DNA of 64,000 bases from Sunxiuqinia elliptica (GTDB taxonomy: Bacteria > Bacteroidota > Bacteroidia > Bacteroidales > Prolixibacteraceae), in the NCBI RefSeq assembly GCF_900113005.1, contig NZ_FONW01000009.1, positions 62,001 to 126,000 of the forward strand. The letters are read 5' to 3'. Both the position numbers and the translations under genes were made by a program. Within the stretch, counting starts at the first letter, position 1. Each line of letters begins with the position of its first letter. Below, piece by piece: positions 42,642 through 64,000 of the stretch. The notes under the pieces were generated by a model. It ran no database searches, was not told the origin of the DNA, and saw nothing but the letters and a program-made list of their open reading frames with translations.

Positions 42642-42666
42642 CTCGTTAAATCAGGTTTTGTCTCAA

Positions 42667-44010: not shown

Positions 44011-44029
44011 GATCTATTTCTTTTATTTA

Positions 44030-45058: not shown

Positions 45059-45118
45059 ATTTTATTGATTTAGTTTTTATCGCGTTAGTTATTAGCTTCA
45101 AAGAGTTTTATCTTCAAA

Positions 45119-45149: not shown

Positions 45150-45155
45150 CGTTTG
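45146..45155 (+). promoter_or_regulatory. Candidate LacI-type operator 1
   Basis: CAATCGTTTG is a near-palindrome centred on CG, the usual centre of LacI-family operators. It overlaps the -33 box of the downstream promoter, so a bound LacI protein would block transcription. Confidence 0.5.
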
Positions 45156-45353
45156 TTTAAATTCATTCAAATGTTTTACAATATCTTTATCCAAAAAAAA
45201 TTTAGGACAGTTGACCTTTTCAATGTTTGATTTTAAAATTAAACAAACACACAAACACCACTAATAGAATAAATTAAAAGCAAACAAAGACATATTTATA
45301 GCTGATATTTGGTCGATTATTCTTTATAACAAATCAGTCAACTTAGATTAAGA

Positions 45354-45363
45354 CAAACGATTG
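45354..45363 (+). promoter_or_regulatory. Candidate LacI-type operator 2
   Basis: CAAACGATTG is the exact reverse complement of operator 1, 208 bp away, and 49 bp after the lacI-type stop. A pair of such sites would allow DNA looping. Between them the 353-bp intergenic stretch (45059-45411) is AT-rich and shows no gene. Confidence 0.5.
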
Positions 45364-45411
45364 CGTAAAATTATTCATTTAATCCTCTAAAATAGATTTA
45401 TTGATCAACAC

Positions 45412-46452: not shown

Positions 46453-46674
46453 ATAAACTCTGGAATCTTATAGACTTTAATTTATGAAGTTAACCCACAA
46501 AGTAACAAGAAAAATCAACATCTTTTAAATAATCGATTTTATCCTGAGTTTGGACTGAGAATAACTCATATCCTCTCCTTGCATTCAACCTGTTGTTCTT
46601 CTTAAATAAAACTTTTGAGCCTCTTCAACAACTAGTTCTTCTTTCAAAGTATATGTTAATACATCGGCTTTCAT

Positions 46675-46715
46675 GCTGGAACATTAAGAGGATAAGTTCC
46701 ACTTAATATTCCAGC
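46675..46715 (-). terminator. Long hairpin after susD
   Basis: Arms at 46675-46688 and 46702-46715 pair over 14 bp in minus-strand RNA (one G-U), with a 13-nt loop, 18 bases after the SusD stop. On the plus strand the stem has one mismatch, so it is adapted to the minus-strand transcript. It lacks a good T-run and may stabilise the 3' end as much as terminate. Confidence 0.6.
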
Positions 46716-46733
46716 CTGAATATTTTAGTTACT

Positions 46734-48452: not shown

Positions 48453-48485
48453 TTTTTAGGTTTAATCATTGATTTCAATCAAAAA

Positions 48486-51400
48486 TCATAAACTGAACCG
48501 GACTCCTGCCGTAACATTACGCATCACGGGGAAATTACTGATCCCACTTTCTGGGTCCCAACCTTCCCACTTCGTCCAGGTATATGGATTCTTACTGGAA
48601 ATATAGACCTGACAATTCTTCATACCTAAACGTCCTAAAGTCTCTTTACTAAAAGAGTAAGCTAGAGAGACATCCTGTAATCGGACAAAACTCCGACTTT
48701 GATGGATACCACTCTGTTGAGCAGGGCTATTATATATTCCGGTTGCATTATTTACCCCATTATCAGGAGTCCAATATGGGCGTACAGCTGTTTGATTTTT
48801 TCGAAGCACATCATCGGCAACCCAATCAACATTTGTAGCACTTGCATTATCTTCTAAATAATACTTATCTCCTCCTTGTATCGAATTAATTAAAAAAGAA
48901 AAAGAAAAGTTTTTATACACAAAGCTGTTACTAATACTAAAACGATAGCTTGGAGATTTATAACCTATGATTTTTCTGTCATTGGATGGGTCAATGGCAT
49001 TATCATCATTCTGATCGACATAACGGAACTGCCCAGGATACCAACCATCCAAAATCTCTCCTCGATAGAGTTCCTCTTCAGTCCACACGCCTCCAGCCAT
49101 CTCATAATCATAAATTGCGCCAATAGACTCTCCTACAAACCAAGAGTTCCCAATATCCATATCCTCCTCATCACCATATAGTTTAGTAATCTTATCTCGA
49201 TTCAACGAGAATGTGAAATTCGTCTCCCAACGAAGATCCCGATCCAGGTTTAAAGAACGTAACTCAATCTCAATTCCTTTATTTTCAATTCCTCCAATAT
49301 TGGCCCAAACGCTATTAAATCCAGAACTCCGAGGTAAGCCTCTGGTAACCAAAACATCATTCGTAACTGCCTTGTAAACATCAACTGAACCTGTTATTTT
49401 CTGATCTAAAATACCCCAATCAATACCAAGGTTCAACGAGTTGGTTTTTTCCCAACGAAGATCTTGATTGCTCAATGTGGTAGGATACATAGCTACAGCT
49501 GTTTCAGCTCCGTAGATGTAGTAATTTGTTCCCATTCTTGCTAAACTTGCATACCGACCAATCCCTTGGTTTCCATTCACACCATATGAGGTTCTCAATT
49601 TCAAATAAGATTGATCGAAACGTTCCTTCCAAAAAGGTTCTTCTGACATAACCCAAGCCAAAGAAACCGAAGGAAACATTGCCCACTTATTATCGGCCCC
49701 AAATCCGGAGAACCCATCTTTTCGAATAGTTCCAGTGATCATGTACCGAGATTTATAGCTGTAATTTAAGCGCGCCATATAAGAAATACTGCTTTCTTCC
49801 CAAGCCGAGGAGCCTACATCATAAATTGTTCCGAGCCCCATATTATTATAACCTAAAAGTTCATTCTCAAACTGACTTGCCTCAAGGCTTGAAGCACTTC
49901 CCTTTCGGTTTTCCCGACTAACCAGGAAAGTTGAATTTACCCGATGATCATTGAAATCTCTTTGGTAAGTGATAATATTATTTACAATCCAGTCTCTTCC
50001 TTCAGTTGGTTCTTTTACTGCTCTTCCTTTGTTGGTGGCACCACCTGTCGTCGATGCCGGATAAAAAGTATTATTATTCCGATTGTTGTAACGATGAGAA
50101 TAATTTAATTCGTTAGTCAACCCTTTCACCCATGGAATGGATATTTTGGCCCTAACTGTCAGATTTAATTCATTGCGCACATCTTCATTATCAATTTCTA
50201 AATATTGAAGCGGATAGGGCATATACTGCTCTTGTGTCAAATACATATCAAAAGCAGGTTTTCCAATATAGTTGTTAGCCAACGGGCTCGCAACTCGAGC
50301 ATCAGCCAGACTTGCCGGGACTCCTGAATAATCTAAATAAGAATAAGAAGTAACAAGATTCAATGTCAACCAATCAGTCACTTCGCTCTCCAAATTATTG
50401 TGAAAGGTAAATCGGCTAAATTTATCATTCAACTGAATTCCTTCTTCTTCTGCCATTGATGCTGATAAGTAGTAATTGACTTTATCAGTAGCTCTTCCCG
50501 ACAAGCTTAGGTTGTAATTCTGAATAGGAGCAACTTGTAAAACTTCATCCACCCAGTTGATTGAATTCCCTGCCATGTAATTATCTCTTTCTTCCTGGGT
50601 GCGCAGTCGCTGAGCCACAATCTCGCGATTCATTACATCCGGTCTTACTGGTTTCCCTGCACTACTTGTTGGATTAGTTCGATACCAACCATACAGTTCC
50701 TGTTGATAATAATAATCAGCCAACCGAATGGCATACTGTTCCCCATCCATCACTTTCATGGGATTATTTGTCATATCCTGATACCCGTAATACATACTAA
50801 AGGCGAGTACGGGTTTATCTGTTTTTCCTTTTTTCGTTGTGATAAGAATTACTCCATTAGCAGATCTGGATCCGTAAACAGCAGCAGCACTCGCATCTTT
50901 TAAAACGTCAATTGATTCAACATCGCTAATATTAATAGATGCCATTGATCCATTGTAAATGATACCATCTACAACAATCAGAGGACTTGAACTTGCGGAC
51001 AAAGATGTTTGTCCTCGAATTGAAAAGGACGGCTGTCCACCAGCTCCCCCGCGTGCTTCGATGTTAACACCAGCAGAACTACCGGAAAGCGTTTCCAATA
51101 AATTCATGTTCGCCTGATTCTCTTTATCATCCATTGATATTCGTTTGACAGAGCCGGTTAAATCACTTTTTTTCATGGTTCCATATCCAACCGCAACAAC
51201 TTCGTCTAACCCAATAGCCTCGTCAGTCATTTTAATTGAAATTTGGCGCTGGTCAATGACAGTGAATTCAACCGTCTTCATCCCAATAAATGAGAATTGC
51301 AATACGGTATTTTGAGAGATATCCATAAGCCTAAAACGACCATCTGTATCAGTCACTGTTCCTTTAGAAGTTCCTTTTACTAATACCGCAACACCTGGAA

Positions 51401-51839
51401 GCGGAAAACCGTCCATATCTGTCACTTGTCCGGAAACGCTTGTTGCATCTTGTTTTACTTGGCTAAAGTTATTTTGCCCATTTTGAGAGATCACAATGAT
51501 TCGATCCATTATTTTGTAGGAATACAACTCTTTATCCAGGATCCTGTCCATTACGTTCTCAATTCTGGTTCCCTCAATCTCTAATGAGTACCTCTTCTCC
51601 AAGTTAAGTTCATCCGCTTTAAACAAAAAGCCGTATTCAGTTAATCGTTCGATCTCTTCTAATACTTCGATGATTGAAGCGTTTCTCACATTCAAATCAA
51701 ATCGAATATTTTGAGAATAGGTTTTGGCAGCCATAACCATTACGGAGAGAAACAAGAACAAGGTTGTCAGTTTCATAATCACTAATAATTTCACTATCCC
51801 AAGCCGTTTACAGGCTCGGAAAAACCGTTTTTTCTTCAT
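48486..51839 (-). CDS. SusC/RagA-family TonB-linked outer-membrane transporter with STN domain
   Basis: A 1117-residue protein. A long signal region is followed by an STN domain (about 45-115, FDLNVRNASIIEVLEEIERL), a carboxypeptidase-regulatory-like domain (about 133-205, SVSGQVTDMDGFPLPGVAVL), the plug (about 215-345, with IDVLKDASAAAVYGSRSANG) and a large barrel ending in SL. An N-terminal STN domain goes with FecR-sigma signalling: the periplasmic domain contacts FecR when substrate is bound. It pairs with SusD to import a glycan. Confidence 0.95.
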   Translation of the reverse strand: MKKKRFFRACKRLGIVKLLVIMKLTTLFLFLSVMVMAAKTYSQNIRFDLNVRNASIIEVLEEIERLTEYGFLFKADELNLEKRYSLEIEGTRIENVMDRILDKELYSYKIMDRIIVISQNGQNNFSQVKQDATSVSGQVTDMDGFPLPGVAVLVKGTSKGTVTDTDGRFRLMDISQNTVLQFSFIGMKTVEFTVIDQRQISIKMTDEAIGLDEVVAVGYGTMKKSDLTGSVKRISMDDKENQANMNLLETLSGSSAGVNIEARGGAGGQPSFSIRGQTSLSASSSPLIVVDGIIYNGSMASINISDVESIDVLKDASAAAVYGSRSANGVILITTKKGKTDKPVLAFSMYYGYQDMTNNPMKVMDGEQYAIRLADYYYQQELYGWYRTNPTSSAGKPVRPDVMNREIVAQRLRTQEERDNYMAGNSINWVDEVLQVAPIQNYNLSLSGRATDKVNYYLSASMAEEEGIQLNDKFSRFTFHNNLESEVTDWLTLNLVTSYSYLDYSGVPASLADARVASPLANNYIGKPAFDMYLTQEQYMPYPLQYLEIDNEDVRNELNLTVRAKISIPWVKGLTNELNYSHRYNNRNNNTFYPASTTGGATNKGRAVKEPTEGRDWIVNNIITYQRDFNDHRVNSTFLVSRENRKGSASSLEASQFENELLGYNNMGLGTIYDVGSSAWEESSISYMARLNYSYKSRYMITGTIRKDGFSGFGADNKWAMFPSVSLAWVMSEEPFWKERFDQSYLKLRTSYGVNGNQGIGRYASLARMGTNYYIYGAETAVAMYPTTLSNQDLRWEKTNSLNLGIDWGILDQKITGSVDVYKAVTNDVLVTRGLPRSSGFNSVWANIGGIENKGIEIELRSLNLDRDLRWETNFTFSLNRDKITKLYGDEEDMDIGNSWFVGESIGAIYDYEMAGGVWTEEELYRGEILDGWYPGQFRYVDQNDDNAIDPSNDRKIIGYKSPSYRFSISNSFVYKNFSFSFLINSIQGGDKYYLEDNASATNVDWVADDVLRKNQTAVRPYWTPDNGVNNATGIYNSPAQQSGIHQSRSFVRLQDVSLAYSFSKETLGRLGMKNCQVYISSKNPYTWTKWEGWDPESGISNFPVMRNVTAGVRFSL

Positions 51840-51915
51840 AGTTTTGTTTGATTTTTGTTAATAAACAGGTTATGGTGACCCGCTAAAATTACCATAGCCC
51901 AAAAAATTCAAAATC

Positions 51916-51943
51916 ATACCGAGATGTTTGCGCATCTCGGTAT
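51916..51943 (-). terminator. Hairpin between fecR and susC
   Basis: A perfect 11-bp stem (ATACCGAGATG with CATCTCGGTAT) and 6-nt loop lie in the 178-bp gap after the FecR stop and before the SusC start. On the minus strand a T-rich stretch follows. It may end part of the sigma-fecR transcripts before susC. Confidence 0.6.
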
Positions 51944-52017
51944 TTCTAGTTCAGGTTAATTGGTTTATTCCATAGGCATATTAAAATAGTTGTTGTACTT
52001 ATCTCCTTTATTTGGGT

Positions 52018-53010
52018 TTAGTATAGGATGATCACATCTGCCTTTTCGACATTCTCAATAATCTTATAATCAAAATCAGTTGCTGCTTTTAGAACTTTCA
52101 GTACGTGTTGTGCAGTCGTGGTTTTTTTAATATTTCCTGTAAAACGATAATCGCGCAAGGCTTCATTTTCAAACTTGAATTCGACCCCATACCACCGGCT
52201 TAGTTCATTAAAAATATCTTCCAAACGCTCATCTCTGATTACAAATTTGCCGTCGCGCCATGCTGATAAAACATGAGAGGAGAGCGATCTTAACTCCATC
52301 CGTTTTTCCTCTTTCAGATACAATGCACTTTCTCCCGGAGTCAAACTCAAAATCCGACTTCCTTCATTCGATAAAATATCAGCTTCGCCCTCAACAAGCG
52401 ATGTTTCAATAAAATTATCCTCCGGGTAAGCTTTTATATTGAAGGTTGTTCCCAAGTCGCGTACGATGAGCTTACCGGTTTTTACAATGAATGGAAAATC
52501 TTCACGATGGGCAATCTGGAAGTAAGCTTCTCCAATCAGCGTTGCTTGGCGTTCCTTCTTTTTATGGTTCTCCCGAAAGCTTAATTTTGAGTCAGAATTC
52601 AACCAGATTTTGGTTCCATCAGCTAACTCAATGACACTGACACTCCCTTTCGTTGCCATAAATTGCTGTGTTTGAGAATACTTATTCTCAAGATTCCCTT
52701 GTGAAATGAAATAACCAACTGCCCCACTAAGCCCAATCACCACAATTAAAATGGCAGCATACCTGAAAGCAACTTTGAGAGTCGTGTTAAGAACCTTTTT
52801 TCTTCCTTTTTTCACCTTCCACCAAATCTCATTGAATTCAGCGTCCTCATCAATTTTCGTATTCTTAATTGAAGTTCTTAACCATAAGCTTTTTAATTCC
52901 ATGAAAAGTTCTTCCTGCTTCTTATCTTGCTCTAACTGCTTGTAGAAAACTTCCTTCTCTTCGTCTGATGCCTCACCTGTAAGTATATGTAGTAATAAAT
53001 CTTCGCTCAT
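52018..53010 (-). CDS. FecR-family anti-sigma factor
   Basis: A 330-residue protein with one membrane helix (about 83-105, RYAAILIVVIGLSGAVGYFI). The cytoplasmic N-terminus should hold the sigma factor, and the periplasmic part has the FecR domain (KGSVSVIELADGTKIWLNSD) and a DUF4974-type C-terminus (RLEDIFNELSRWYGVEFKFE). It passes the signal from SusC to the ECF sigma factor. It lies 91 bp downstream of the sigma gene. Confidence 0.93.
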   Translation of the reverse strand: MSEDLLLHILTGEASDEEKEVFYKQLEQDKKQEELFMELKSLWLRTSIKNTKIDEDAEFNEIWWKVKKGRKKVLNTTLKVAFRYAAILIVVIGLSGAVGYFISQGNLENKYSQTQQFMATKGSVSVIELADGTKIWLNSDSKLSFRENHKKKERQATLIGEAYFQIAHREDFPFIVKTGKLIVRDLGTTFNIKAYPEDNFIETSLVEGEADILSNEGSRILSLTPGESALYLKEEKRMELRSLSSHVLSAWRDGKFVIRDERLEDIFNELSRWYGVEFKFENEALRDYRFTGNIKKTTTAQHVLKVLKAATDFDYKIIENVEKADVIILY

Positions 53011-53101
53011 TTCATGCTTCTTTATGAATGAACAAACAAGAATCCTGTTACCCTAATAAAAAAGTGAATAATTTCTGATAAAAGATGAATGAAGAAGGTT
53101 G

Positions 53102-53680
53102 TTAATCCAGGAAATTGGTCAATATCATGATCAAAGGGAGGTAGTCTTTCAATTCCTTGCGTAGAATTTTTAACGCTTTGGTTAAGTGGGCTTCAACGGT
53201 TTTCAATGTTACGCCAAGCTTCGCCGCAATTTCTTTATTCTTTAAATCTTCGAAGCGACTCATTTTAAAAACTGCACGACAATGTTCCGGTAGGTTTTCG
53301 ATGGCGCGATCAATATTCTCTTTCAACTCCTCAAACTCCAAGTAACTCCCTGATACTTTCATCAGACTTTCATACTGATAATGAATTTCCATCCATTTTA
53401 TTTGCTCATGATGCTTTAATAAAATCTGACGCCGCTTGAGAATATTTAAGCTGTTATTTTTAACTAAGGTGAATAAAAAGTTTTTTAGATTTGAATCCTG
53501 ATCGATTTCACTTCGGACTTCCCACAACTTTACAAATGCCTCTTGAACAACTCCTTTAGCTTCCGCCGTATCTCCCAAATAGTACTTACTTAAATGGCAA
53601 AGGGGTTGATAATATTTATCGTAAACCTCCCGAAAGCTGCTTTTTTGATCCTTTGATAAAGAAAATAGTTGCTCGTGCAT
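53102..53680 (-). CDS. ECF RNA polymerase sigma factor (FecI-like)
   Basis: A 192-residue sigma-70 factor of the ECF group. Region 2 begins near FREVYDKYYQPLCHLSKYYL and includes AKGVVQEAFVKLWEV. Region 4 has a helix-turn-helix (MSRFEDLKNKEIAAKLGVTL, continuing KTVEAHLTKAL). It is held by FecR until the SusC receptor is loaded and should then switch on the glycan locus. It is first in the sigma-fecR-susC-susD unit. Confidence 0.93.
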   Translation of the reverse strand: MHEQLFSLSKDQKSSFREVYDKYYQPLCHLSKYYLGDTAEAKGVVQEAFVKLWEVRSEIDQDSNLKNFLFTLVKNNSLNILKRRQILLKHHEQIKWMEIHYQYESLMKVSGSYLEFEELKENIDRAIENLPEHCRAVFKMSRFEDLKNKEIAAKLGVTLKTVEAHLTKALKILRKELKDYLPLIMILTNFLD

Positions 53681-53895: not shown

Positions 53896-53953
53896 ATAAA
53901 AAAAAGACTTTACTTGGAAACATGACGAGCATATTTCAACAAGTAAAGTCTTT
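53896..53953 (-). terminator. Rho-independent terminator of the catabolic operon
   Basis: A perfect 14-bp inverted pair, 53903-53916 (AAAGACTTTACTTG) with 53940-53953, encloses a 23-nt loop. On the minus strand it runs into eight T. It lies 50 bases after the MFS stop and separates this operon from the sigma-susCD unit. Confidence 0.85.
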
Positions 53954-54002
53954 CTCAATTGAGTTAGCAACAATAATCCTTCTATTGCTCCACAATCATC
54001 TC

Positions 54003-55427
54003 CTACTGTTTCGCCTGCTCCATCCAGTAACGCTCAATTTCTTCGAGGCTTTTTCCTTTGGTTTCAGGAATAAGTTTGTGAAAGAAGATCGTGCCAACCA
54101 AGCAGAATGCTGCAAAGGTGAAAAAGCCAGCTCCCATGCCAACATTTGCCACATACCACGGGAAAAGGAAAGCTGCTGCAAAGTTGGTTCCCCAGTTGGC
54201 GAAGGTGGCCAACGACATGGCTCTTCCTCGAATGTGCGTTGGATAAATTTCGCCAATAATTACCCAAATGACCGCATTGATCGAAAGCGCTAAACTACCA
54301 ATGTAAATACAAAGCAAGACCACGGTCCAAATGCCCGATGCAATGTCGGTTACAAACAAGGTTCCGATGGCACAAAGCGAAACAAAGACGGCCGTCATAC
54401 CACCAATCAGCAAAGGCCGACGTCCCCAGCTATCAATTTTAGTCAGCGCAATAACGGTAAAAATCAAGTTAATCATTCCAATCAGCACTTGAAATTGAAC
54501 GGCATTATCCAAGGCAAAACCAGCTCCCTCAAGGATGGTTGGGCCATAGTAAATTACGATATTCACCCCGGTAAACTGACCAAACACAGAAAGGCCAATA
54601 CCTACTGCCAATGCACGTCGCATCCCTGGTTTTAACAACTCCCGGATTCCGACATCCTTTTTCTTGTCCTCCTTTTTAGGGTGAAGGAGTTTTTCATCCA
54701 ACTCGCCATTAATACGTTTCAACAAGGCTACACCTTTATCAATAAAGCCTTTATCAATCAACCAACGTGGGCTTTCAGGCACAAAAAACAATAACAGAAT
54801 AAACAGTCCACAAGGAACCATTTCTGCCGCAAACATCCCCCGCCAAATCTCAGTATTAAACACTTTTTGCAAGATTCCGTGCGTGAAAATATTATCAGGA
54901 GAAGCTGCATAACGCAACAAAGCCCAGTTTGAAAAATACGCCAACAAAATCCCCAGTACGATGGACAACTGATACAAAGCCACCAGGCGTCCGCGTATTT
55001 TTGCAGGGGCAAATTCAGAAATATACATGGGAGAAAGTACTGAAGCCATTCCAACGCCTAGTCCTCCAACCAAACGTGCAACAATCAATAACGTAAAACT
55101 TGGTGGTACGGAGGAGAAAAAAGCGGACACAAAGAACAACAACGCAGCCAAAATCAAAATGGGTTTTCGCCCGAAACGGTCACTCAATGTTCCAGCAATA
55201 AAAGCACCAACAATGGCTCCGATTAACGCAGAGCTCCCGAACCAACCGACCATCAATTTCGACAAACCAAATTGGGTTTCCACCATTCCGAAGGTTCCCG
55301 AAATTACGGCTGTATCAAAGCCAAAAAGGACTCCACCCAGCGAAGCGACAAAACAGGTTAAGCCTAATAAAGTCTTGGTTTTCTGCCCATCAGAAGCTGA
55401 TGATTCCTTCAATTTTACCTTATTCAT
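54003..55427 (-). CDS. MFS sugar porter
   Basis: A 474-residue protein with 12 membrane helices of the sugar-porter family. Marks are GFDTAVISGTFG (helix 1), GTLSDRFGRKP (loop 2-3), PESPRWLIDKG (loop 6-7), and PETKGKSLEEIE at the end. It imports a monosaccharide or sugar acid by proton symport. It is last in the operon that also encodes DUF4855, DUF4434 and the unknown lipoprotein, so its substrate is probably the product of these proteins. Confidence 0.92.
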   Translation of the reverse strand: MNKVKLKESSASDGQKTKTLLGLTCFVASLGGVLFGFDTAVISGTFGMVETQFGLSKLMVGWFGSSALIGAIVGAFIAGTLSDRFGRKPILILAALLFFVSAFFSSVPPSFTLLIVARLVGGLGVGMASVLSPMYISEFAPAKIRGRLVALYQLSIVLGILLAYFSNWALLRYAASPDNIFTHGILQKVFNTEIWRGMFAAEMVPCGLFILLLFFVPESPRWLIDKGFIDKGVALLKRINGELDEKLLHPKKEDKKKDVGIRELLKPGMRRALAVGIGLSVFGQFTGVNIVIYYGPTILEGAGFALDNAVQFQVLIGMINLIFTVIALTKIDSWGRRPLLIGGMTAVFVSLCAIGTLFVTDIASGIWTVVLLCIYIGSLALSINAVIWVIIGEIYPTHIRGRAMSLATFANWGTNFAAAFLFPWYVANVGMGAGFFTFAAFCLVGTIFFHKLIPETKGKSLEEIERYWMEQAKQ

Positions 55428-55483
55428 TTTCGTTTAGATTTATAGTTTTCTAGTTACGTTAATTTTTGATTCTTAAATTAAAC

Positions 55484-56491
55484 TCATTTAAAGACATAAG
55501 TTCCTTCCCAAAAAACCAACTCTCCTTTCTTTAGTTTCAGGTTCTTCCCATTTACCAGATTAAAGTATGATTTCCCGTAATCCGCAGAAAAAGCCCGCGC
55601 CAAACCATCGGCTAAATAGTCAAATGTGCCCAGGCCCTTTTCCGTATTCAGAATAAGTTCCAACTCATATTTCCCCTGTTCTCCGCTCAGAATGACTCGA
55701 TTGACTGCGTCATTTTTCACACATGAGTTGTTGGTTCGTACCGGCTCTGTATTCATGATCTCCGTTGGAGAAGCATAACTCACCGAATCGAAAACAGCGA
55801 AGTTCTGACTTTGCATCCCATAATAACGATGAATCACCACATCGTTTAGGGCGGTAATGGTTACACGAACCTTGATTGAACAATTAGACAGCACCTGATA
55901 ATTAACAGACTCCTGAAGCAGGTAGTTTCCTGTTCCCGGATTATCATAGCCTTGAATTAAATTCACAACATTCAAACTTACCAGCTCACTCATTCCTGAG
56001 AAACCGGAACTCTTTGGCTCGCCATCAACCGTCACTGCTACACGCTTTGTCATGGCTGTTGGCTCGCCGGTCCCATCTCCATTTGAACCGTGCCACCCTC
56101 CTGTAAATTGTTTGGGCCGATCACTGGTGGCATTCTCCAATAGACTTACATGATACGGGCCAACCCAATCTGTCGCTGAAGGAAATTCGAGAGCATACGG
56201 CTTCTCTTCAGATATTACAGACGAGGTATCGTAAGCAAGCTTTCCTAGGGCAAAAATCTGATTAACGCCACAAGGAAAAAACGCTACCTCCAACTGCTTG
56301 TCTGGAAGCTGAAACTCACAGCTCAAGTGACCTTCAGAATAAACCACAGCGAATTTTTCAGCTTGCTCCTGAGAGCTATTTCGCTGCCCACAAGCAAACA
56401 ACCCGACGATCAGCCCAATCATCCAAAAGCCTTGCTGCTTCTGCTGCCAAAGCCGACGACAAAGAGTTAAGTTTATTCCAAAATGAGTCAC
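55484..56491 (-). CDS. Lipoprotein of unknown function, carbohydrate locus
   Basis: A 335-residue exported lipoprotein with a lipobox in VGLFACGQ (Cys 34 if the start at 56491 is right; an internal ATG gives the shorter MIGLIVGLFACGQ). The mature protein is beta-rich, with motifs such as FTGGWHGSNGDGTGEPTAMT and FNLVNGKNLKLKKGE, and lacks a recognised catalytic site. The fold is probably a galactose-mutarotase-like or beta-sandwich domain, as in other PUL-associated proteins; this is a guess. It lies 10 bp after the DUF4434 gene. Confidence 0.6.
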   Translation of the reverse strand: MTHFGINLTLCRRLWQQKQQGFWMIGLIVGLFACGQRNSSQEQAEKFAVVYSEGHLSCEFQLPDKQLEVAFFPCGVNQIFALGKLAYDTSSVISEEKPYALEFPSATDWVGPYHVSLLENATSDRPKQFTGGWHGSNGDGTGEPTAMTKRVAVTVDGEPKSSGFSGMSELVSLNVVNLIQGYDNPGTGNYLLQESVNYQVLSNCSIKVRVTITALNDVVIHRYYGMQSQNFAVFDSVSYASPTEIMNTEPVRTNNSCVKNDAVNRVILSGEQGKYELELILNTEKGLGTFDYLADGLARAFSADYGKSYFNLVNGKNLKLKKGELVFWEGTYVFK

Positions 56492-56501
56492 GCTATCCGG
56501 T

Positions 56502-57542
56502 TTATTTTATCGCTTTATGCTCGCGCAATTGCGTATATAATTTTGTTGAATCCGGATGCCCCGCAAACGCTTTTGATCCTGGCTTGTTCATCATTCCAAT
56601 GTACTGGTAAATCAAAATCTTTTCGACATAAGGAGACACAGCTTCCAGCTGTTGAATCACACGCTCGGCAGGTGCTGGAAGCAATGCGCTGTTGTATACT
56701 TTTCCTTCAAAACGGAATACCTCAACATCGGCCCAAAGACGCGATTTAGCCGCCTTTTTATGCATCTTGTATAAATTTTCGAAGAAGCCGGCACTTTCCT
56801 CGACCTGAGTCTTCTCCACTCCAATTTCATCCTGGTAAGCAATAAAATCGACATCCAGTTGTTCCAGCTGGCGTACGTATTGATCATCAGCCTTCACATT
56901 GCGCGTTCCGTAGGGAGCAATCAAGGTTTTTGCTTTAGGCATCAGCTTAGCTGCCTCGGCCGAAGATTCATTCACATAATTGATAAAGAAGTCGTCGTAA
57001 TGCCCGTAAATACCGGTTTCATTCGGATAATACCATCCGTAAAAACTTTTGTGATGCCCATACTTTTCGGCCAGTTCATTCATGGCTTTCAAGCGCAATT
57101 TATTCACCTCCCGATCCTGCATCAACATGGCTGGTTTGGTCCATTCGCCAAAGAAACCATTGCTCACAAAAAAGCGGAGCCCATATTTATCGGCGGCAGT
57201 CAGCACTACTTCCAATGGATCTTCACAGCCCATTTCATGCTTTGGCAGCAATGAAGTCGGATAAAAGCTTTTGCCGTAAATAGCCACATCCAGCAATACC
57301 AGGTAACGCATGCCGGCATCGGCAATCTCTTTTACTTTAGCATCCCACTGCTCAGCCGTAAATTTTTCCAAAGTCGGGTTCCAATACTTCCCTTCTACAG
57401 CACTATGATGTTGAAACTCAAACCATGATCCTTCAATCGGTTTAATTCCTGACTTCTTTCTTGCCGCAGCCTGTACTTCCAATAAAAAAGGGCTGGCTAA
57501 AGCCATCGTCCCCATGGTTCTTAAAAAATTCTTTCGGTTCAT
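56502..57542 (-). CDS. DUF4434-like TIM-barrel protein (glycoside-hydrolase-like)
   Basis: A 346-residue exported protein; the N-terminus MNRKNFLRTMGTMALASPFL is a Tat- or Sec-type signal. The DUF4434-like barrel runs from GSWFEFQHHSAVEGKYWNP, through AGMRYLVLLDVAIYGKSF and FYGWYYPNETGIYGHY (two acidic groups near the expected active site), to ILIYQYIGMMNKPGS. Members are thought to act as glycoside hydrolases, but the substrate is not known. It overlaps the DUF4855 gene by 4 bases. Confidence 0.78.
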   Translation of the reverse strand: MNRKNFLRTMGTMALASPFLLEVQAAARKKSGIKPIEGSWFEFQHHSAVEGKYWNPTLEKFTAEQWDAKVKEIADAGMRYLVLLDVAIYGKSFYPTSLLPKHEMGCEDPLEVVLTAADKYGLRFFVSNGFFGEWTKPAMLMQDREVNKLRLKAMNELAEKYGHHKSFYGWYYPNETGIYGHYDDFFINYVNESSAEAAKLMPKAKTLIAPYGTRNVKADDQYVRQLEQLDVDFIAYQDEIGVEKTQVEESAGFFENLYKMHKKAAKSRLWADVEVFRFEGKVYNSALLPAPAERVIQQLEAVSPYVEKILIYQYIGMMNKPGSKAFAGHPDSTKLYTQLREHKAIK

Positions 57543-58609
57543 TTCTTTAAAAATCGTTTATCTTTTCGCTCAATAATCAACTTGGCCAGACGATCCATCA
57601 ATGCTTTATCCTTCGGATTGTTCGACTTTGAAAAACGGTAAACACCATTTCCTCCCTCATAATAAGCAATTGAAGCCTGTTCAAATACCCCGTTTTTTTC
57701 ATAAGCATCGATATACGCCTCCAAACGAGTGCTGAAGCCAGACTCATGATCTGCCAAGGCCCGGCCATCAAACTCCATTTCCAATCCCATATTTTTTTCG
57801 CGGGCAAAAGCACAGGTTTGCTCCAGGCGTTCGTCGGCAATGTCTTTATTGAAAAAGTGGTTGGGTTGAATCCAGGCAAAGTCAAATTTATATTCAGCCC
57901 AGTCTCCACGTCCCGGGGCTGTCCAGTAAGGAATCCAGTAAAATTGAAGCCCTTTGGATCGAATGTAGTCTCCTAGTGGAATTAAAATATCGGCACAACC
58001 ACGCACATCCTCATCCACCCAATAGAACCCTTTCAACTCCAAGTGCTGGTAGTTTTCTTGCTCATAACGTTCCAGGAAACGATCGATATACCATTTTCCG
58101 GCAGTCAGTCGATCTTCTTGCTTACGGAAGTCCAGCTTTTGCCCATCAATTTCCCCCCAATCCTCTTGATTCAATATGGGGGAAGGAATACCAGAAATTA
58201 GCTTGTGTTTAAAACCAGGAGCTCCAATTTCCTGAATTTGCTCTTCAATACACTGATTTAAGGCAGAGAAAGCTTTATCCTTTTCAAACCGACGATCGAG
58301 TAACCATTCCCACTCCGGCTTCCGCGCATTCAGTTTATCGTAGCCCGGGGCATAATTTCGCCCCTGGCCATCTTTAAACTCTAAAAACAAGAAACCATCA
58401 AACAACCAATTTTTCTCCCCTTGCTGATTTTCATGCACCACATAAGGTAAAAACTGATCCTTTGTCCACTCCATCGGACGGTGTGTTCCTCCTTGATAAA
58501 TCAGCACTAAATCTGCAATATCAATTTTACCATAAGGACCACTCCCAAAGGCTGATAAACAAAAAATAAACTGAATAAAAAGCGTTGAGATGGAAACAAA
58601 GAAGTTCAT
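57539..58609 (-). CDS. DUF4855-like exported protein
   Basis: The start at 58609 (MNFFVSISTLFIQFIFCLSA) gives a signal peptide, and an upstream ATG at 58675 is less likely. The 356-residue product begins with DLVLIYQGGTHRPMEW and continues NWLFDGFLFLEFKD, both DUF4855-like. A barrel-type segment follows, with KGFYWVDEDVRG and FDFAWIQPNHFFNKD. It probably acts on a glycan or sugar lactone in the periplasm or at the surface; no mechanism is known. Cotranscribed with the DUF4434 gene. Confidence 0.72.
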   Translation of the reverse strand: MNFFVSISTLFIQFIFCLSAFGSGPYGKIDIADLVLIYQGGTHRPMEWTKDQFLPYVVHENQQGEKNWLFDGFLFLEFKDGQGRNYAPGYDKLNARKPEWEWLLDRRFEKDKAFSALNQCIEEQIQEIGAPGFKHKLISGIPSPILNQEDWGEIDGQKLDFRKQEDRLTAGKWYIDRFLERYEQENYQHLELKGFYWVDEDVRGCADILIPLGDYIRSKGLQFYWIPYWTAPGRGDWAEYKFDFAWIQPNHFFNKDIADERLEQTCAFAREKNMGLEMEFDGRALADHESGFSTRLEAYIDAYEKNGVFEQASIAYYEGGNGVYRFSKSNNPKDKALMDRLAKLIIERKDKRFLKK

Positions 58610-58702
58610 TTCAAAAAAGTTTAGTTGGTTTACGCTTGATAAATAAACTAATTTATTTCCAGAAAAGTAAAGCAAAATCTAAAAATATTTAGTTTTTACT
58701 TT

Positions 58703-58718
58703 ATATTTTATAAAATAT
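58703..58718. repeat. 16-bp perfect palindrome upstream of the DUF4855 gene
   Basis: ATATTTTATAAAATAT is fully symmetric, in the 139-bp gap between the DapA-family stop and the DUF4855 start. It could be a regulator site or part of a weak terminator, or chance in AT-rich DNA. Confidence 0.35.
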
Positions 58719-58748
58719 TTTACAAACCTTATTTTATTGACTTTCACT

Positions 58749-59813
58749 TTACCTCCAACTCTCCAAATGACTCTTAACAAATGCATCATCATTTAAATGA
58801 GGATAGGCCTCATAAACGCGGTCAATCTCCTCCTTCTGCCCCGGTGACAGGGCTTCATCTTCATTCAAAGTCCAAATGCCTTCCAAAAGTCCTTGGCGTC
58901 TTAAAACTTCATGAATACCAGTAATGCATCCCTGAAAGTTATTTGCCACATCGAAAAAGGCCGCATTACAATCGGTAATTTGATTGGCTAAAGCCAATGC
59001 CGACGGCATATCTCCGTTCAGTTGTCCGGAATGCACCTTCTCTAACAATTGAACAGCGGTGTGTGTCCAAACGGCCCAATGCCCCAGCAAACCACCTACA
59101 ACTCGTTTACGAAACACCTGACCTTTCACAACCGTTTGATATTCCGACAATAGATCCACCAAAATATTATCGTCATTTCCGGTATAAAGTGCAATTTCAT
59201 TGTTTCTTCCGGATTCTGCCACGCCACGAACAACATCCAAGGTTTGATACCGATTAAATGGAGCCATTTTAATTGCAATCACATTATCAATCCGGGCAAA
59301 TTCGCGCCAAAAATCCACATCCAATTTTCGTCCGCCAACTGCTGGTTGCAGATAAAAGCCAACAACAGGCATCTCCGCTGCAACAGCACGGCAATGCTTG
59401 ATAATCTCCTCATTTGATGCTTCTTTAAATGCAGCGACACTCAACAACACAGCATGGTAGCCATATTTTTTTGCGGTTTGAGCTTCGCAAACTGCTTGTT
59501 GGGTATTCCCAATTACCCCTGCCAGCCGAATAATGGGTTTCTGCGTTCTTTTAACAAAGCGATTAAATTCCTCCTGCGCAATCTCAAGCACCGATTCAAA
59601 CAAATTGAATTCAGGCAGGCGAATCACAAATTGCGTGGTATGAACGGCCACTGCCACCCCGCCTGCTCCCGCATTCAGGTAGTAGCGCATTAACAATCGC
59701 TGACGCCCCACATCCAGCTCCCTGTCTTTGTTTAGGGCAAGGGGCAGCGCAGGAATCACTGTTCCTTGATTTAAAATATCAATGATCTCCTTAGGTAGTT
59801 CGTTTTTATGCAT
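58749..59813 (-). CDS. DapA/N-acetylneuraminate-lyase family aldolase
   Basis: A 354-residue class I aldolase of the DHDPS family. The Schiff-base Lys is K182 (IAIKMAPFN), 28 residues after the catalytic Tyr Y154 (GFYLQPAVGG), the same spacing as in DapA. The usual GTTGE loop is replaced by VHTTQF (residues 57-62). Such members cleave or join pyruvate-containing sugar acids. The C-terminal extension is longer than in DapA. It lies 13 bp after the SDR gene. Confidence 0.87.
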   Translation of the reverse strand: MHKNELPKEIIDILNQGTVIPALPLALNKDRELDVGRQRLLMRYYLNAGAGGVAVAVHTTQFVIRLPEFNLFESVLEIAQEEFNRFVKRTQKPIIRLAGVIGNTQQAVCEAQTAKKYGYHAVLLSVAAFKEASNEEIIKHCRAVAAEMPVVGFYLQPAVGGRKLDVDFWREFARIDNVIAIKMAPFNRYQTLDVVRGVAESGRNNEIALYTGNDDNILVDLLSEYQTVVKGQVFRKRVVGGLLGHWAVWTHTAVQLLEKVHSGQLNGDMPSALALANQITDCNAAFFDVANNFQGCITGIHEVLRRQGLLEGIWTLNEDEALSPGQKEEIDRVYEAYPHLNDDAFVKSHLESWR

Positions 59814-59826
59814 GGTCTTTATTGAT

Positions 59827-60864
59827 TTAGTATTTTCCGTCTCTTACTTCAAAGTGGGTTGGTTTCCCAAGCAATTTGCCATCTCCCTTCATCCAGGCTG
59901 CTGTCCATTCAATTAGTTGATCGACCGGCACCACTGGAGGACCAAATCGCTCCGTTGCCTTTTTGGCATTGCTCAACAAAGCTGTTTCAGCCTCCTTCCC
60001 TACAAAAACAGGCTCAATTCCGAATAAGACACCAAATTGTTTAGCCACTTCCCGAACCGAAAGTATTTCCTGTCCGGTAATATTGAAAATTGCCGCTGGA
60101 GGACGAAGTTCCGCCAAGGATTGCAAAACCATGTTATTGGCATCTCCCTGCCAAATCACATTGAAATACCCCATCGACAAATCAATTTCTTGCTTGTTTT
60201 TCACCTTCGTTGCGATATCGACTAAAACGCCATAATGTGGTTCAACAGCATAATTTAAGCGAATTAACGCAACCGGAGTCTGGTACTTGCGGCTACCATA
60301 CTCAAACATTCTTTCGCGCCCCAAACAAGATTGCGCATATTCCCCCGTCGGCATCGGCGGATCTGTTTCTACTGAACCTCCACTTTGTACTGATACCAGC
60401 GGATACACACATCCTGTTGAATAAGCGACGATATTGGAATCTTTAAAATATTCAGCCACTAAAGCCGGCAAATACGTATTCATGGCCCAGGTAAGTCCAA
60501 GGTTCTCTTCTGAGCCGAACTTCATTCCCGCTAAAAAAAAGACATTCTTCACTTTAGGAAGCTGCTCTAGAAAATTACGATCCAGCAAATCTCCCTGAAA
60601 GGTTTCGATCCCCAAACGCTCAATCCACGTTTTTTCGCTGGCATTGCTAAACCGGGAAACACCGATAATACGCTTCTTCACACCTGCAAGCTTACAAGCC
60701 CGCTGTGCCATGTGAGCCAAGGATGGCCCTATTTTTCCGGCAATTCCTAAAAAGATGATGTCCCCTTCTAAGCTTTTGAATAGCTCTATAACTTCAGAAG
60801 ATGGACGAGACAGCAATTCTTCCAATTGCTTTTCATCACTAATTTTTTGCGGATACAATTCCAT
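59827..60864 (-). CDS. Extended SDR (NAD-dependent epimerase/dehydratase) with altered YxxxK
   Basis: A 345-residue Rossmann-fold protein of the extended SDR class. The NAD-binding GxxGxxG is G40-G43-G46 (FLGIAGKIG), and the Ser/Thr site is YSTGCVYP (149-150). The catalytic motif that should be YxxxK reads Y176-A-Q-S-C180, so Lys is replaced by Cys. Without this Lys the normal hydride chemistry would be impaired, so the protein may bind NAD and do another step. Start overlaps nothing; it is 2 bp after the M20 gene. Confidence 0.82.
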   Translation of the reverse strand: MELYPQKISDEKQLEELLSRPSSEVIELFKSLEGDIIFLGIAGKIGPSLAHMAQRACKLAGVKKRIIGVSRFSNASEKTWIERLGIETFQGDLLDRNFLEQLPKVKNVFFLAGMKFGSEENLGLTWAMNTYLPALVAEYFKDSNIVAYSTGCVYPLVSVQSGGSVETDPPMPTGEYAQSCLGRERMFEYGSRKYQTPVALIRLNYAVEPHYGVLVDIATKVKNKQEIDLSMGYFNVIWQGDANNMVLQSLAELRPPAAIFNITGQEILSVREVAKQFGVLFGIEPVFVGKEAETALLSNAKKATERFGPPVVPVDQLIEWTAAWMKGDGKLLGKPTHFEVRDGKY

Positions 60865-60866
60865 AA

Positions 60867-61988
60867 CTATATTTCTCCTTTCAAAATGATCTTTTTATAA
60901 ATTTCAATAGCCTCCATGATGTTCTCCGTAAAACAATACTCATCGTCTTTATGAGCCATTTCAGGCAGACCGGGCCCTAGAATAACGGTGGGAGCACCAT
61001 CAAAAGCAGCTTGCAACACAGCACCATCTGTTAGGTATGGCAATGATTTTGGTGGAATGTCTGCAGAATCGTCAAGTCCGCAAGCCCGATAAACGGAATG
61101 GACAAATGAGTCATTGGCGTGGGTTGAAACAGCAGGAAGATCAACCAATACCCCAATGCGAACGTCCTCTCCCAGCTCGCCTTTGAGTCTTGCTAATAGC
61201 TCGTTATGATCGGAACAGGACGTTGAACGGATATCAATGGTGAACTCTGCAAAATCAGCAACAGAATTAAGATTTAAGCCACCTCGAACCGTTCCCACAT
61301 TAATTGTTGGCCATCCCAATAACCCATCTTCAGGTTCCGAAAACTTAAAACGCTCCGCCTTCAACAGGGCACGCGCAACCTTATAAATAGCATTGTCTCC
61401 CAAGTGTGGCATGGAAGAATGTGCGGTTCGTCCCTGAGCAGTGACGCGTAAATACAGACCTCCTTTATGCCCAATGGCTGGGATATTTGCTGTTGGTTCA
61501 CCCACCACAATTCCCCTTGCTTTTCCCAAATGTTTCATATGCTCAACCAAATGAGCCGCTCCCTGACAACCAGTTTCCTCTCCAGCAGTAAGCAAGAGCC
61601 GAACAGCAGCATCTGGGTTTTCAGTAACAGCCAGAATAGCCGCAACTACCATGGCTGCCACACCGCTCTTCATATCACTGGCTCCCCGTCCAAATAACTT
61701 TCCCTCTTTGATCTCGCCTCCCAACGGATCTTCGTTCCAGTTCCCAACGTCAAAAGGGACCGTATCAAAATGTCCAGAAAAGATTACCGAAGAATCATCG
61801 GTTGCCCTTGCATTTTCCGCAACAAGATGTAAACGGTTTTCTCCAAAAGAGTAGTACACTACATGAAACCCATTTTCCTCCAAAAGCTCACCAACGACTT
61901 TTGCAGCTTGTGCTTCATTTCCCGGAGGATTGACTGTGTTTAACTCGACAAGTTTCTGAGTCAACAATATGGCATCACTTGCATTCAT
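60867..61988 (-). CDS. M20-family deacylase/peptidase (ArgE/DapE-like)
   Basis: A 373-residue metallohydrolase of the M20 family. Metal ligands are H73 and D75 (SGHFDTVP), D105 (GRGASDMKSG) and E137/E138 (TAGEETG). The lid domain sits in the middle. Relatives remove acyl groups from amino acids and amino sugars, or split dipeptides. In this operon a deacylation of an N-acyl amino sugar acid or similar is likely; the substrate is not fixed. It lies 11 bp after the Nramp-fold gene. Confidence 0.87.
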   Translation of the reverse strand: MNASDAILLTQKLVELNTVNPPGNEAQAAKVVGELLEENGFHVVYYSFGENRLHLVAENARATDDSSVIFSGHFDTVPFDVGNWNEDPLGGEIKEGKLFGRGASDMKSGVAAMVVAAILAVTENPDAAVRLLLTAGEETGCQGAAHLVEHMKHLGKARGIVVGEPTANIPAIGHKGGLYLRVTAQGRTAHSSMPHLGDNAIYKVARALLKAERFKFSEPEDGLLGWPTINVGTVRGGLNLNSVADFAEFTIDIRSTSCSDHNELLARLKGELGEDVRIGVLVDLPAVSTHANDSFVHSVYRACGLDDSADIPPKSLPYLTDGAVLQAAFDGAPTVILGPGLPEMAHKDDEYCFTENIMEAIEIYKKIILKGEI

Positions 61989-61999
61989 TTTCGGTTATC

Positions 62000-63229
62000 T
62001 TATAGGGATTGAATAAAACTGATAATCTTAGCATACATAAAGTACACCATCACACAGATAAGCAGAAAACCCAAAATAGCCAGGGTATTTTGTAGTTTAC
62101 CGTTTTTCAGTTTTCCCATCACCATTTTTCGATTGACAATTAATAGAATACCAATAGCAATAAGAGGAACGGCCAAAATGGATGAGGCCTGCGCCAAAAT
62201 TAAGGCGTAAACGACATTCCCTTTGAAAAAAACAGCAATTAGCATTCCCACCAAAAGAATGACTACCGTGAATAACTTTGGCATCTTTTCGTTCATCGAC
62301 CGACCGAGCCCCAAGCCATCAGCCAGCAAACCACCCCCCATTACGGCGTTAACCATCAGGGAAGAGAAAGCTGCTGCACACAAGCCAAAGCTAAATATCA
62401 CCTTGGCATAGCGTCCAAATAACGATTCCAGTTGTAGAGCCATATCAGCAGCAGAATTAACGACAATTCCAAGTGGATTGAGCACTGCAGCCGAGGTAAT
62501 AATCACCAAAGCAGAAATGATTGCCAATAAAGAAATTCCCATATAGGTGTCATTCTGTGCCTTTTTAGCATCCGCAATTTTCCAGCCTTTATCCTGCGCT
62601 AAATAGGATTGGTACAGTGCTCCATTCAACACAAAGGTTGTTGCAACAAGCGCGGCCACCACATCCAAATCTCCTAGTGAAAAAGACTTAGGGACAAAGC
62701 CTTGAGCGACTTGTCCCATATCCGGACGCGCCAAAATTAGATTGAATAGAAAAGCCAAGATCATAATCATGACCATTCCCATCATGAGCTTCTCCAATAT
62801 TTTATACAGGTTACCCGCTCGAAAAACCAGCAACATTCCCAAAGGGGTAAATATAAAAGGCCACACTCGTTCATCAACGCCAGTTATTCCTTCCATGGCA
62901 ATCCCAATCCCCAGGTTATTCCCAAACTGAAAGCTTGATGCTGAAAGGAATGCACAAATTCCAATAACCACCGAAAACCATCGCCCATAAGTTACTGCGA
63001 TCTGCTGCAAGATGGATCGCTCGTGTGAAATTCCAAACCGCAAGGACATGGAAGTATAGGCAACCATTGATATGGCAGCCACCACAATCACCCACAAAAA
63101 GGCATAGCCATAAACCGATCCAATTCGGGATGCAACCGTAATACTTCCCGGTCCCAAGGCAGCCGAAGCGACAATAAATCCGGGACCAACCGATCGAATA
63201 ATTTGCTTTACACGTTCACCTATACTCAT
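62000..63229 (-). CDS. Nramp-fold transporter lacking the metal-binding motifs
   Basis: A 409-residue membrane protein with 11 predicted helices and the Nramp fold. Helix 1 starts GPGFIVASAALGPGS: the metal motif DPGN is replaced by GPGS (residues 26-29). In helix 6 the MPHN site is replaced by VLNG (ATTFVLNGALYQSYL). The protein is thus unlikely to carry Mn2+ or Fe2+. It is in an operon with a DapA-family lyase, an SDR, an M20 deacylase and an enolase-superfamily enzyme, so import of an organic substrate is the better inference. It is a distant relative of the Nramp-fold protein at 38008. Confidence 0.82.
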   Translation of the reverse strand: MSIGERVKQIIRSVGPGFIVASAALGPGSITVASRIGSVYGYAFLWVIVVAAISMVAYTSMSLRFGISHERSILQQIAVTYGRWFSVVIGICAFLSASSFQFGNNLGIGIAMEGITGVDERVWPFIFTPLGMLLVFRAGNLYKILEKLMMGMVMIMILAFLFNLILARPDMGQVAQGFVPKSFSLGDLDVVAALVATTFVLNGALYQSYLAQDKGWKIADAKKAQNDTYMGISLLAIISALVIITSAAVLNPLGIVVNSAADMALQLESLFGRYAKVIFSFGLCAAAFSSLMVNAVMGGGLLADGLGLGRSMNEKMPKLFTVVILLVGMLIAVFFKGNVVYALILAQASSILAVPLIAIGILLIVNRKMVMGKLKNGKLQNTLAILGFLLICVMVYFMYAKIISFIQSL

Positions 63230-63263
63230 GGTATCCTTCTATTTTTTTATCTGATTTTTCAGA

Positions 63264-64000
63264 CTATATTTTTCCAAACAAATCATTGTAATGCGTTGGT
63301 AATTTAAAGATACCACCACTGCTTTCGTAAAAATCCGGCCCGGTTGAGAATAAACCATCTCTCACATCACCCAAACGCTGATTGCTTATTGGCAAATAGC
63401 TTTTCATGGTCTTCCAGTTTTTATAATTCTGAGCACCGTTACTTTCGAGTAGCCCCAACCCGTTTAATCCTGGAAAGGTTTTTAGTCTGGCCGCAATGTT
63501 TTTATTCCACTCAACCAAAATGGGGTTTACAGTAAGGTCGGCACAAAAACAAGGAATATTTTGCTCGGTGGCCGCCTTCGCAATTTTCATGGTCATGCTT
63601 AAAGTCTTCGCAATTGGCTTAAGTGCGATTGCCCGATAGCCCATCTTAATTCGGGTTATTGTATCCACATCGGTATGCGCACTCTCGTCGGCAGCCAAAC
63701 GCACAGGAATGTCAGAAACATCAATTTGCAATTCTTCGGGGAAAGGCTCTTCCACAATTGTAATTTGATCAAAGGCTCCAATCTTTTGGGCATGTTCCAG
63801 AAACCGTAAAAAAGTCTCTTTTGACTCATACCGACCATTCGCATCAAAATAATAAGGAAGCTTTCCATTGTATGTATGTGGCGTTCTAACATCTTTCAAA
63901 ACCTCATGGATCGAGCCAAGACGCTCCATATCTTTCTGTAACATTTCTTGCTGCGTGCCAGGCTGACCAAGTTTTATTTTCATAAAGAAATGCCCATCGG
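63264..64000 (-). CDS. Enolase-superfamily enzyme (mandelate racemase/muconate-lactonising type), 3' part
   Basis: The frame is open past 64000, so the gene is cut by the window edge; the ATG at 63983 is internal. The visible end has the KxK catalytic motif (FFMKIKLGQ), metal ligands in YYFDANGRY (Asp), ITIVEEPFPEE (Glu) and AADESAHTDVD (Glu/Asp), and the capping tail. It removes or moves a proton next to a carboxylate, as in sugar-acid dehydratases and epimerases. It is 34 bp before the Nramp-fold gene and is the first visible gene of the operon. Confidence 0.82.
   Translation of the reverse strand, partial: DGHFFMKIKLGQPGTQQEMLQKDMERLGSIHEVLKDVRTPHTYNGKLPYYFDANGRYESKETFLRFLEHAQKIGAFDQITIVEEPFPEELQIDVSDIPVRLAADESAHTDVDTITRIKMGYRAIALKPIAKTLSMTMKIAKAATEQNIPCFCADLTVNPILVEWNKNIAARLKTFPGLNGLGLLESNGAQNYKNWKTMKSYLPISNQRLGDVRDGLFSTGPDFYESSGGIFKLPTHYNDLFGKI

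Follow-up and report, generated by a model that had tools for sequence, protein, structure and literature searches.

The distal half of a probable SusC/SusD operon

The window analysed in this work is a stretch of 64,000 nucleotides of the Sunxiuqinia elliptica genome (G000:C9:62001-126000, where G000 stands for the genome and C9 for its contig), at one end of which a minus-strand run of nine genes encodes, among others, an extended short-chain dehydrogenase/reductase (SDR) and a lyase of the DapA family. These two constitute an uncharacterised pair, adjacent to each other in many bacterial phyla. All nine genes described in the initial annotation were found in place in the list of open reading frames, on the same strand, with the families confirmed by Pfam or, for the enolase-superfamily protein, by fold and residues, and with no Pfam family for the lipoprotein (Table 1). 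From the gene of the major facilitator superfamily (MFS) porter to that of the enolase-like protein, the intergenic gaps are 56, 10, −4, 139, 13, 2, 11, and 34 bp; the spacing given previously (2-56 bp, and 139 bp before DUF4855) thus stands if DUF4855 starts at its ATG, with the addition of one 4-bp overlap. The strong terminator reported at the end of the run was also corroborated, as the hairpin following the MFS gene has a folding energy of −35.4 kcal/mol (z −5.7; 0/200 shuffles as stable), and a simple pattern scan for terminators did not list it.

Table 1. Features of the minus-strand run within the window (positions counted from the first letter of the window).
Feature	Position	Strand	Remarks
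Rho-independent-type terminator	53900-53956 (about)	minus	hairpin and U run 3' of the MFS gene; ends the run
MFS sugar porter	54003-55427	minus	Pfam Sugar_tr 1.2e-110; glycan module
Lipoprotein of a family without a name	55484-56491	minus	lipobox by eye; no Pfam match; homolog in G571
DUF4434 protein	56502-57542	minus	Pfam 5.7e-59; Tat-like signal by eye; glycan module
DUF4855 protein	57539-58675 (TTG start) or from ATG 58609	minus	Pfam 3.5e-98; signal peptide by eye; glycan module
DapA/NanA-superfamily lyase	58749-59813	minus	Pfam DHDPS 2.1e-13; Schiff-base Lys182, Tyr154; defines the cross-phylum family
Extended SDR	59827-60864	minus	Pfam Epimerase 7.4e-10; cofactor motif and Tyr, no catalytic Lys
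M20 (ArgE/DapE-like) deacylase	60867-61988	minus	Pfam M20 2.3e-28; no signal peptide by eye
Nramp-fold importer	62000-63229	minus	Pfam Nramp 2.9e-64; GPGS in place of DPGN
Enolase-superfamily protein, C-terminal part	63264-64000 and beyond	minus	244 of 460 aa inside the window

The gene set named in the initial annotation was correct but incomplete, being cut at the window edge: the same-strand run extends upstream for about 13 kb past the window end, and the window holds only its 3' part. From its 5' end, the operon encodes an extracytoplasmic function (ECF) sigma factor, FecR, SusC, SusD, a Gfo/Idh/MocA protein, DoxX, an esterase-like alpha/beta hydrolase (with Pfam scores at or under the cut-offs), and a second Gfo/Idh/MocA protein, followed by the enolase-like, Nramp-fold, M20, SDR, DapA-family, DUF4855, DUF4434, lipoprotein, and MFS genes. 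Gaps in the upstream part are 79, 174, 39, 24, and 131 bp, and SusC (TonB plug and barrel) adjoins SusD (SusD_RagB) on the same strand with 27 bp between them by coordinates. The whole run, from the ECF sigma factor to the MFS porter, is likely one transcript. The locus is best read as a SusC/SusD glycan-use operon with its own ECF sigma/FecR pair, the window genes being its distal half. It is ordinary as a polysaccharide utilisation locus, sharing SusC/SusD, ECF sigma/FecR, exported enzymes, and an MFS porter with those of other Bacteroidota, and less ordinary in its catabolic core, which is uncharacterised; moreover, unlike in those loci, no family of carbohydrate-active enzymes was recognised within the operon.

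The catabolic core and its accompanying proteins

Core loci were collected by a pattern scan of bacterial genomes with four DapA-family proteins, from which the best 80 of 570 relatives were used; with three more, this gave 83 other loci (84 with the window's own). The 80 include many of Bradyrhizobium, and L015 and L032 lie on one contig, so the 84 loci represent at most 83 places. In L023 the DapA gene was not called, and the genes of high-GC loci were called by a codon-usage script. According to tblastn, 72/83 of the other loci (73/84 with the own one) have the SDR on the strand of DapA and in the same stretch of the contig, and 68 of the 71 called SDR genes are within 2.5 kb of DapA, with a median gap of 157 bp. 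Other partners are less constant: GNAT proteins cluster with the core in 30/84 loci (24 by stricter labels), and tblastn placed an M20 relative near DapA in 17/83 other loci, an Nramp-fold relative in 16/83, and an enolase-like one in 3/83. In Bacteroidota, the Nramp-fold and M20 proteins accompany the core.

According to the record titles, with phylum labels assigned in this work, the core occurs in Bacteroidota, Pseudomonadota, Planctomycetota, Verrucomicrobiota, Lentisphaerota, Armatimonadota, Bacillota, Acidobacteriota, Chlorobiota, Calditrichota, KSB1, UBP13, and others, as well as in Actinomycetota via plasmids. In all nine plasmid loci considered (9 of 20 records), an SDR-type neighbour stands beside DapA or one gene off, accompanied by Gfo/Idh (5/9), sugar phosphate isomerase/epimerase (4/9), and GNAT (3/9) genes. 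The DapA family is present in 3/198 genomes of the order, and the own genome carries a second, similar core on another contig (L013 on C12). No description of the SDR-DapA pair was found among the papers searched in open-access PubMed Central.

Two other forms of the locus may be mentioned here. In Alphaproteobacteria (L066, L083, L085, and relatives), the set comprises an NMT1-type binding protein, TetR, a permease, SDR, GNAT, DapA, and an ATPase, which suggests a small imported acid, and in Paenibacillus (L075:11049-12659) the core is followed by both parts of an L-serine dehydratase (by eye), which might supply a deamination step missing from the operon analysed here.

The DapA-family protein shares with NanA and DHDPS, its nearest solved relatives, the fold family, the Schiff-base Lys, the Tyr, and the Thr-Thr carboxylate site: Lys182, Tyr154, His58, Gln61, Arg65, Asp214, and His245 are kept in 82/82 sequences, and Thr60 in 81/82. 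It differs from them in being distant (E ~1e-8), in carrying its own signatures (AVAVHTTQF, GFYLQPAVGG, YTGNDDN, and GGLLGHW), and in missing the cut-offs of named functions: the Pfam DHDPS score is 50.1 bits (cut-off 22.1), whereas each NCBIfam equivalog is missed (NanA 36.6/382, DapA 31.9/206, and KdgD 25.5/374 bits). Judging by these residues, the lyase looks active. In the SDR, the glycines of the cofactor motif GxxGxxG (Gly40/43/46) and Tyr176 are present in 71/71 sequences, and the Lys of the YxxxK motif (position 180) in 0/71, being replaced by Cys (64), Ala (3), Val (2), Thr (1), or Ser (1). The SDR model (pLDDT 94) aligned best with TerB (VIA-align Z 31.6, rmsd 2.4, 291 residues aligned), and sugar-nucleotide epimerases and dehydratases follow at most about 4 Z units below.

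For the enolase-like protein, there was no Pfam match, no phmmer match in the PDB, and only weak NCBIfam matches to N-acetyl-D-Glu racemase and Ala-Glu epimerase. Foldseek recognised the enolase fold (E 9.3e-12, probability 1.00) on a weak model (pLDDT 59, pTM 0.59), the top matches being a mix of cycloisomerases, dehydratases, and dipeptide epimerases. A KxK motif with D/E/D metal ligands and a Lys of strand 6 is typical of the muconate-lactonising subgroup (epimerases and cycloisomerases), not of sugar-acid dehydratases. Such a set (Lys223, Lys225, Asp268, Glu300, Asp320, and Lys343, assigned by eye) is kept in 4/4 homologs, and core-adjacent enolases of L047 and L101 show the same pattern by eye, while that of L034 differs. 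By its residues the protein is thus of the epimerase rather than the sugar-acid-dehydratase type, and the dehydration step assigned to it in the initial annotation was rejected on this ground. It is probably exported, as suggested by an RR motif and a lipobox seen by eye at the N-terminus.

The canonical metal-binding motif of Nramp transporters is DPGN in the first helix. Among the 15 of 19 Nramp-fold sequences readable at this place, we found GPGS in 13, GTGS in one, GPSK in one, and DPGN in none; GxGS is presumably akin to the helix breaks found in the amino-acid carriers of this larger superfamily. Although the protein scores well above the cut-offs of Pfam Nramp (217.8 vs. 29.8) and NCBIfam Nramp_1 (82.7 vs. 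50 bits), the role of a metal importer was rejected on the lost motif, despite the automatic annotation. In the M20 protein, His73, Asp75, Asp105, Glu137, Glu138, Glu164, and His346 are kept in 17/17 sequences, so the enzyme looks active, and its score with TIGR01910 (ArgE/DapE) is 205.7 bits, below the cut-off of 217.6.

The glycan module and the hexosamine context

The initial annotation tied the idea of a single pathway to the co-occurrence of its gene set in other genomes. In tblastn searches, DUF4855, DUF4434, the lipoprotein, the MFS porter, and the esterase-like protein were found in 0/83 other core loci, and the full set occurs in no other genome searched; one conserved pathway with exactly this set was therefore rejected. 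The second group of genes is conserved on its own. A single contig of the distant genome G571 encodes counterparts of the lipoprotein (34% over 283 aa), DUF4434 (26%), DUF4855 (three, 28-31%), the MFS porter (38%), and the esterase-like protein (54%), together with GH20, GH92, and a phosphoesterase; in the 37 kb examined, no relatives of the SDR, DapA, M20, Nramp, or enolase proteins were detected at E 1e-5, and the G571 genome has no DapA relative at 1e-60. Among 395 genomes of the phylum group, DUF4855 is present in 5, the DapA family in 5, and DUF4434 in 24 above the cut-off (36 at E 0.001). Both DUF4855 and DapA occur in only 2/395, the own genome and G359, where they lie on separate contigs (C66 and C1). 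The full gene set is not a conserved unit among the genomes searched, and the operon joins two separately conserved modules, a catabolic core and a glycan module.

No solved structure significantly matched the lipoprotein pair, DUF4434, or DUF4855, and the search for papers on DUF4434 and DUF4855 in open-access PubMed Central yielded one, in which they are barely mentioned. The lipoprotein and its relative L146:1928-2902 share the motif FTGGWHGxNGDGTGxPTA and have no Pfam or PDB matches. Another locus of the own genome, on contig C22 (L006:8797-15626, L008:1936-8129), encodes three DUF4855 domains (two of them in one protein), NAGPA, two GHL10 proteins, DUF4434, and an FAD oxidoreductase.

The neighbours of both modules point to N-acetylhexosamines. 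To list the glycosidases associated with the gene set had been proposed in the initial annotation, and among 99 proteins neighbouring the core (hand-picked from 131, plus two of L027, with alphaproteobacterial loci excluded) the only recurring glycosidase family is GH20, with 6 members. GH20 stands beside 5/50 core loci, compared with 0.45 expected from genome-wide GH20 counts (49 genomes), and also beside the second own core copy. In an operon of L047 (Armatimonadota), genes for NagA-like, NagB-like, MLE-type enolase, SDR, and DapA proteins follow in a row, and a NagA-like gene lies near the core in L027. As regards the glycan module, a GlcNAc 2-epimerase family protein adjoins DUF4855 in L149 and DUF4434 in L150 (the latter also with DUF5009), GH20 occurs in L146, and the phosphodiester glycosidase NAGPA in the own C22 locus. 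In Bacteroides thetaiotaomicron, judging by locus tags, BT0442 (DUF4855) has an alpha-N-acetylglucosaminidase and DUF5009 in its vicinity (table in PMC10434189).

Directly downstream of the main operon lies another one (37193-53680), with its own SusCD, ECF/FecR, LacI, three Gfo/Idh proteins, and a DoxX-like protein with 38% identity to that of the main operon. It further encodes a secreted-looking NagA-like enzyme just above the cut-off (227.1 vs. 225.65 bits), a NagB-like enzyme below it (145.7 vs. 236.9 bits), and an Nramp-fold protein with a GTGS motif (25% to the first one).

A possible amino-sugar acid route and its alternatives

The reading that we tentatively favour, as possible and more probable than any other weighed here, is that the operon serves to take up an N-acyl amino-sugar acid and to degrade it without phosphorylation, with a DapA-type lyase as the last enzyme. 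A glycan containing N-acetylhexosamine would be taken up via SusC/SusD and trimmed, with DUF4855, DUF4434, the lipoprotein, and the esterase-like protein acting on it at the surface or in the periplasm, and the exported Gfo/Idh enzymes (glycoside 3-dehydrogenase-like) would oxidise the released sugars. The exported enolase-superfamily protein could then epimerise the carbon beside the carboxylate of the N-acyl amino-sugar acid, which the Nramp-fold carrier, with its metal ligands lost, would import. In the cytoplasm, M20 would strip the acyl group, the SDR would oxidise or otherwise rearrange the amino-sugar acid, and the DapA-family enzyme, forming a Schiff base on Lys182, would split a keto acid into pyruvate (or a close relative) and an aldehyde, with no prior phosphorylation. 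What the analysis shows directly is the gene order, the protein families, which active-site residues are retained or lost, the pairing of SDR and DapA across phyla, and the presence of N-acetylhexosamine enzymes beside both modules. We infer from this every substrate, the sequence of the reactions, which way the carrier transports, what the SDR catalyses, and the point of nitrogen loss.

The ong pathway for N-acetyl-D-glucosaminate (from oxidised chitin) of Pseudoalteromonas prydzensis (PMC9537276) is a close precedent for this logic. It likewise has an outer-membrane receptor, an inner-membrane importer, cytoplasmic deacetylation before phosphorylation, a keto-deoxy acid, and a periplasmic hexosaminidase (found here beside the core in some relatives). 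It differs in its deacetylase OngB, a D-aminoacylase-type amidohydrolase (structure published; PMC12017989) instead of M20, in its importer of the SSS type instead of the Nramp fold, in its pyridoxal phosphate (PLP) deaminase OngC, RidA, and the kinase KdgK, not present in the operon, and in having no SDR or DapA-family lyase. Pfam and NCBIfam assigned none of the operon genes to a D-aminoacylase-type OngB, OngC, or KdgK.

Several observations weigh against the amino-sugar acid reading. The operon has no ammonia-lyase or PLP deaminase to account for nitrogen loss, and a kinase is absent as well. The GH20 test was chosen post hoc (P ~1e-4 for five loci, 1e-3 for four), and the five loci are not independent, L019 and L020 being of the same genus and L020 and L024 of the same genome. 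The model of the enolase-like protein is weak (mean pLDDT 59), and the Nramp-fold protein passes the NCBIfam cut-off for a "divalent metal transporter". Concerning the distribution, the SDR was not seen in 11/83 loci (in 3/83, DapA lies within 1.5 kb of the contig start), M20 and Nramp are present in only 18/84 and 17/84 core loci, respectively, and the enolase-like protein in only three others. Finally, 22 of the 84 loci, all alphaproteobacterial, combine the core with GNAT and an ABC importer of the NMT1 type, and hexosamine genes were not recognised there.

The alternatives are all unlikely, and the least so is that the operon performs two unrelated jobs, the glycan module and the core being merely co-transcribed and acting on different substrates. 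The modules are indeed conserved apart, but hexosamine enzymes recur beside both of them, and the MFS and Nramp-fold importers stand in the same run. Slightly less likely is a 3-keto-glycoside route, in which Gfo/Idh enzymes oxidise a glycoside at C3, elimination follows, and the SDR and DapA enzymes act on the keto-sugar product. It would agree with the 14/99 neighbours of the Gfo/Idh family (five matching BT_2158, "glycoside 3-dehydrogenase"), with the Gfo/Idh and sugar phosphate isomerase genes of the plasmid loci, and with DUF1080 in the contexts of L099 and L048 (the latter by eye); however, the Gfo/Idh matches are, where shown, far under the family cut-off (133.3 vs. 750 bits for the operon's own), and Thr59-Thr60 with Lys182 of the lyase suit a 2-keto carboxylate.

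Next in order, we consider improbable a route for a neutral or uronic sugar acid in which the enolase-family enzyme carries out a dehydration and the DapA-family one the cleavage, M20 removing an O- or N-acyl decoration. The kept residues make a competent DapA-type lyase plausible, and some core loci have a dehydratase-looking MR_MLE enzyme (L034), but the KxK/D/E/D/K residues of the window enolase, and of those of L047 and L101, are typical of epimerases and lactonising enzymes, and the adjacent enzymes are of the hexosamine type. The least likely of these four is an amino-acid pathway with no sugar involved, in which GNAT acylates, the enolase racemises, M20 deacylates, and the SDR and DapA enzymes degrade an L-amino acid. 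The frequency of GNAT genes near the core speaks for it, as do class III aminotransferases (3/99 neighbours) and the serine dehydratase of Paenibacillus. A known model is the N-succinylamino acid racemase route (Sakai 2006, as cited in PMC8762209, which describes its GNAT activity), with a similar toolkit of GNAT, enolase-superfamily epimerase, and deacylase, and with similar enolase residues. Here, in contrast, the enolase is predicted to be exported, GNAT is absent from the operon, and the SDR and DapA are additional; furthermore, GNAT and M20 occur together in only 3/84 loci (L016, L028, and L078), and the surroundings include SusCD, GH20, and Gfo/Idh. A nonulosonic-acid or Kdo lyase was also considered for the DapA-family enzyme; no kinase or synthase context was seen, with no test aimed at it.

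In comparison with the initial annotation, the observations were confirmed and the interpretation as a whole was partly supported. A locus of the SusCD type that combines surface proteins and importers with a deacylase and a DapA-type lyase, and that has an amino-sugar flavour, stands, while the exact set as one pathway does not; the weaker idea that an N-acylated acid is cleaved by the DapA-family enzyme was kept, with better evidence from the context.

The amino-sugar acid reading may be extended to a bolder form, which we regard as doubtful: a non-phosphorylated N-acyl amino-sugar-acid pathway shared across phyla, with an exported alpha-epimerase, a GxGS Nramp-fold carrier, a Lys-less SDR, and a new DapA-family lyase. 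By converting a D-like carbon to the L-like form, the exported epimerase would allow an L-type M20 deacylase to act, and this pair would be a second solution to deacylation at a D-like carbon. If true, this would tie an uncharacterised enzyme pair of more than 10 phyla to the turnover of amino sugars, recast a family of Nramp-fold proteins, annotated as metal importers, as carriers of organic acids, and give DUF4855 and DUF4434 their first context. The SDR and the DapA-family lyase are two purifiable enzymes, which makes the question directly testable even without the substrate.

Upstream of the operon, a further same-strand cluster (L007:5621-15454, G000:C9:139120-148953) encodes Gfo/Idh, an MGH1-like glycosidase, a metallophosphoesterase, an alkaline phosphatase, GH92, and a small protein with no Pfam match, phosphodiesterase-like by eye. 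This cluster looks like one for the use of a phosphorylated mannan or anchor glycan.

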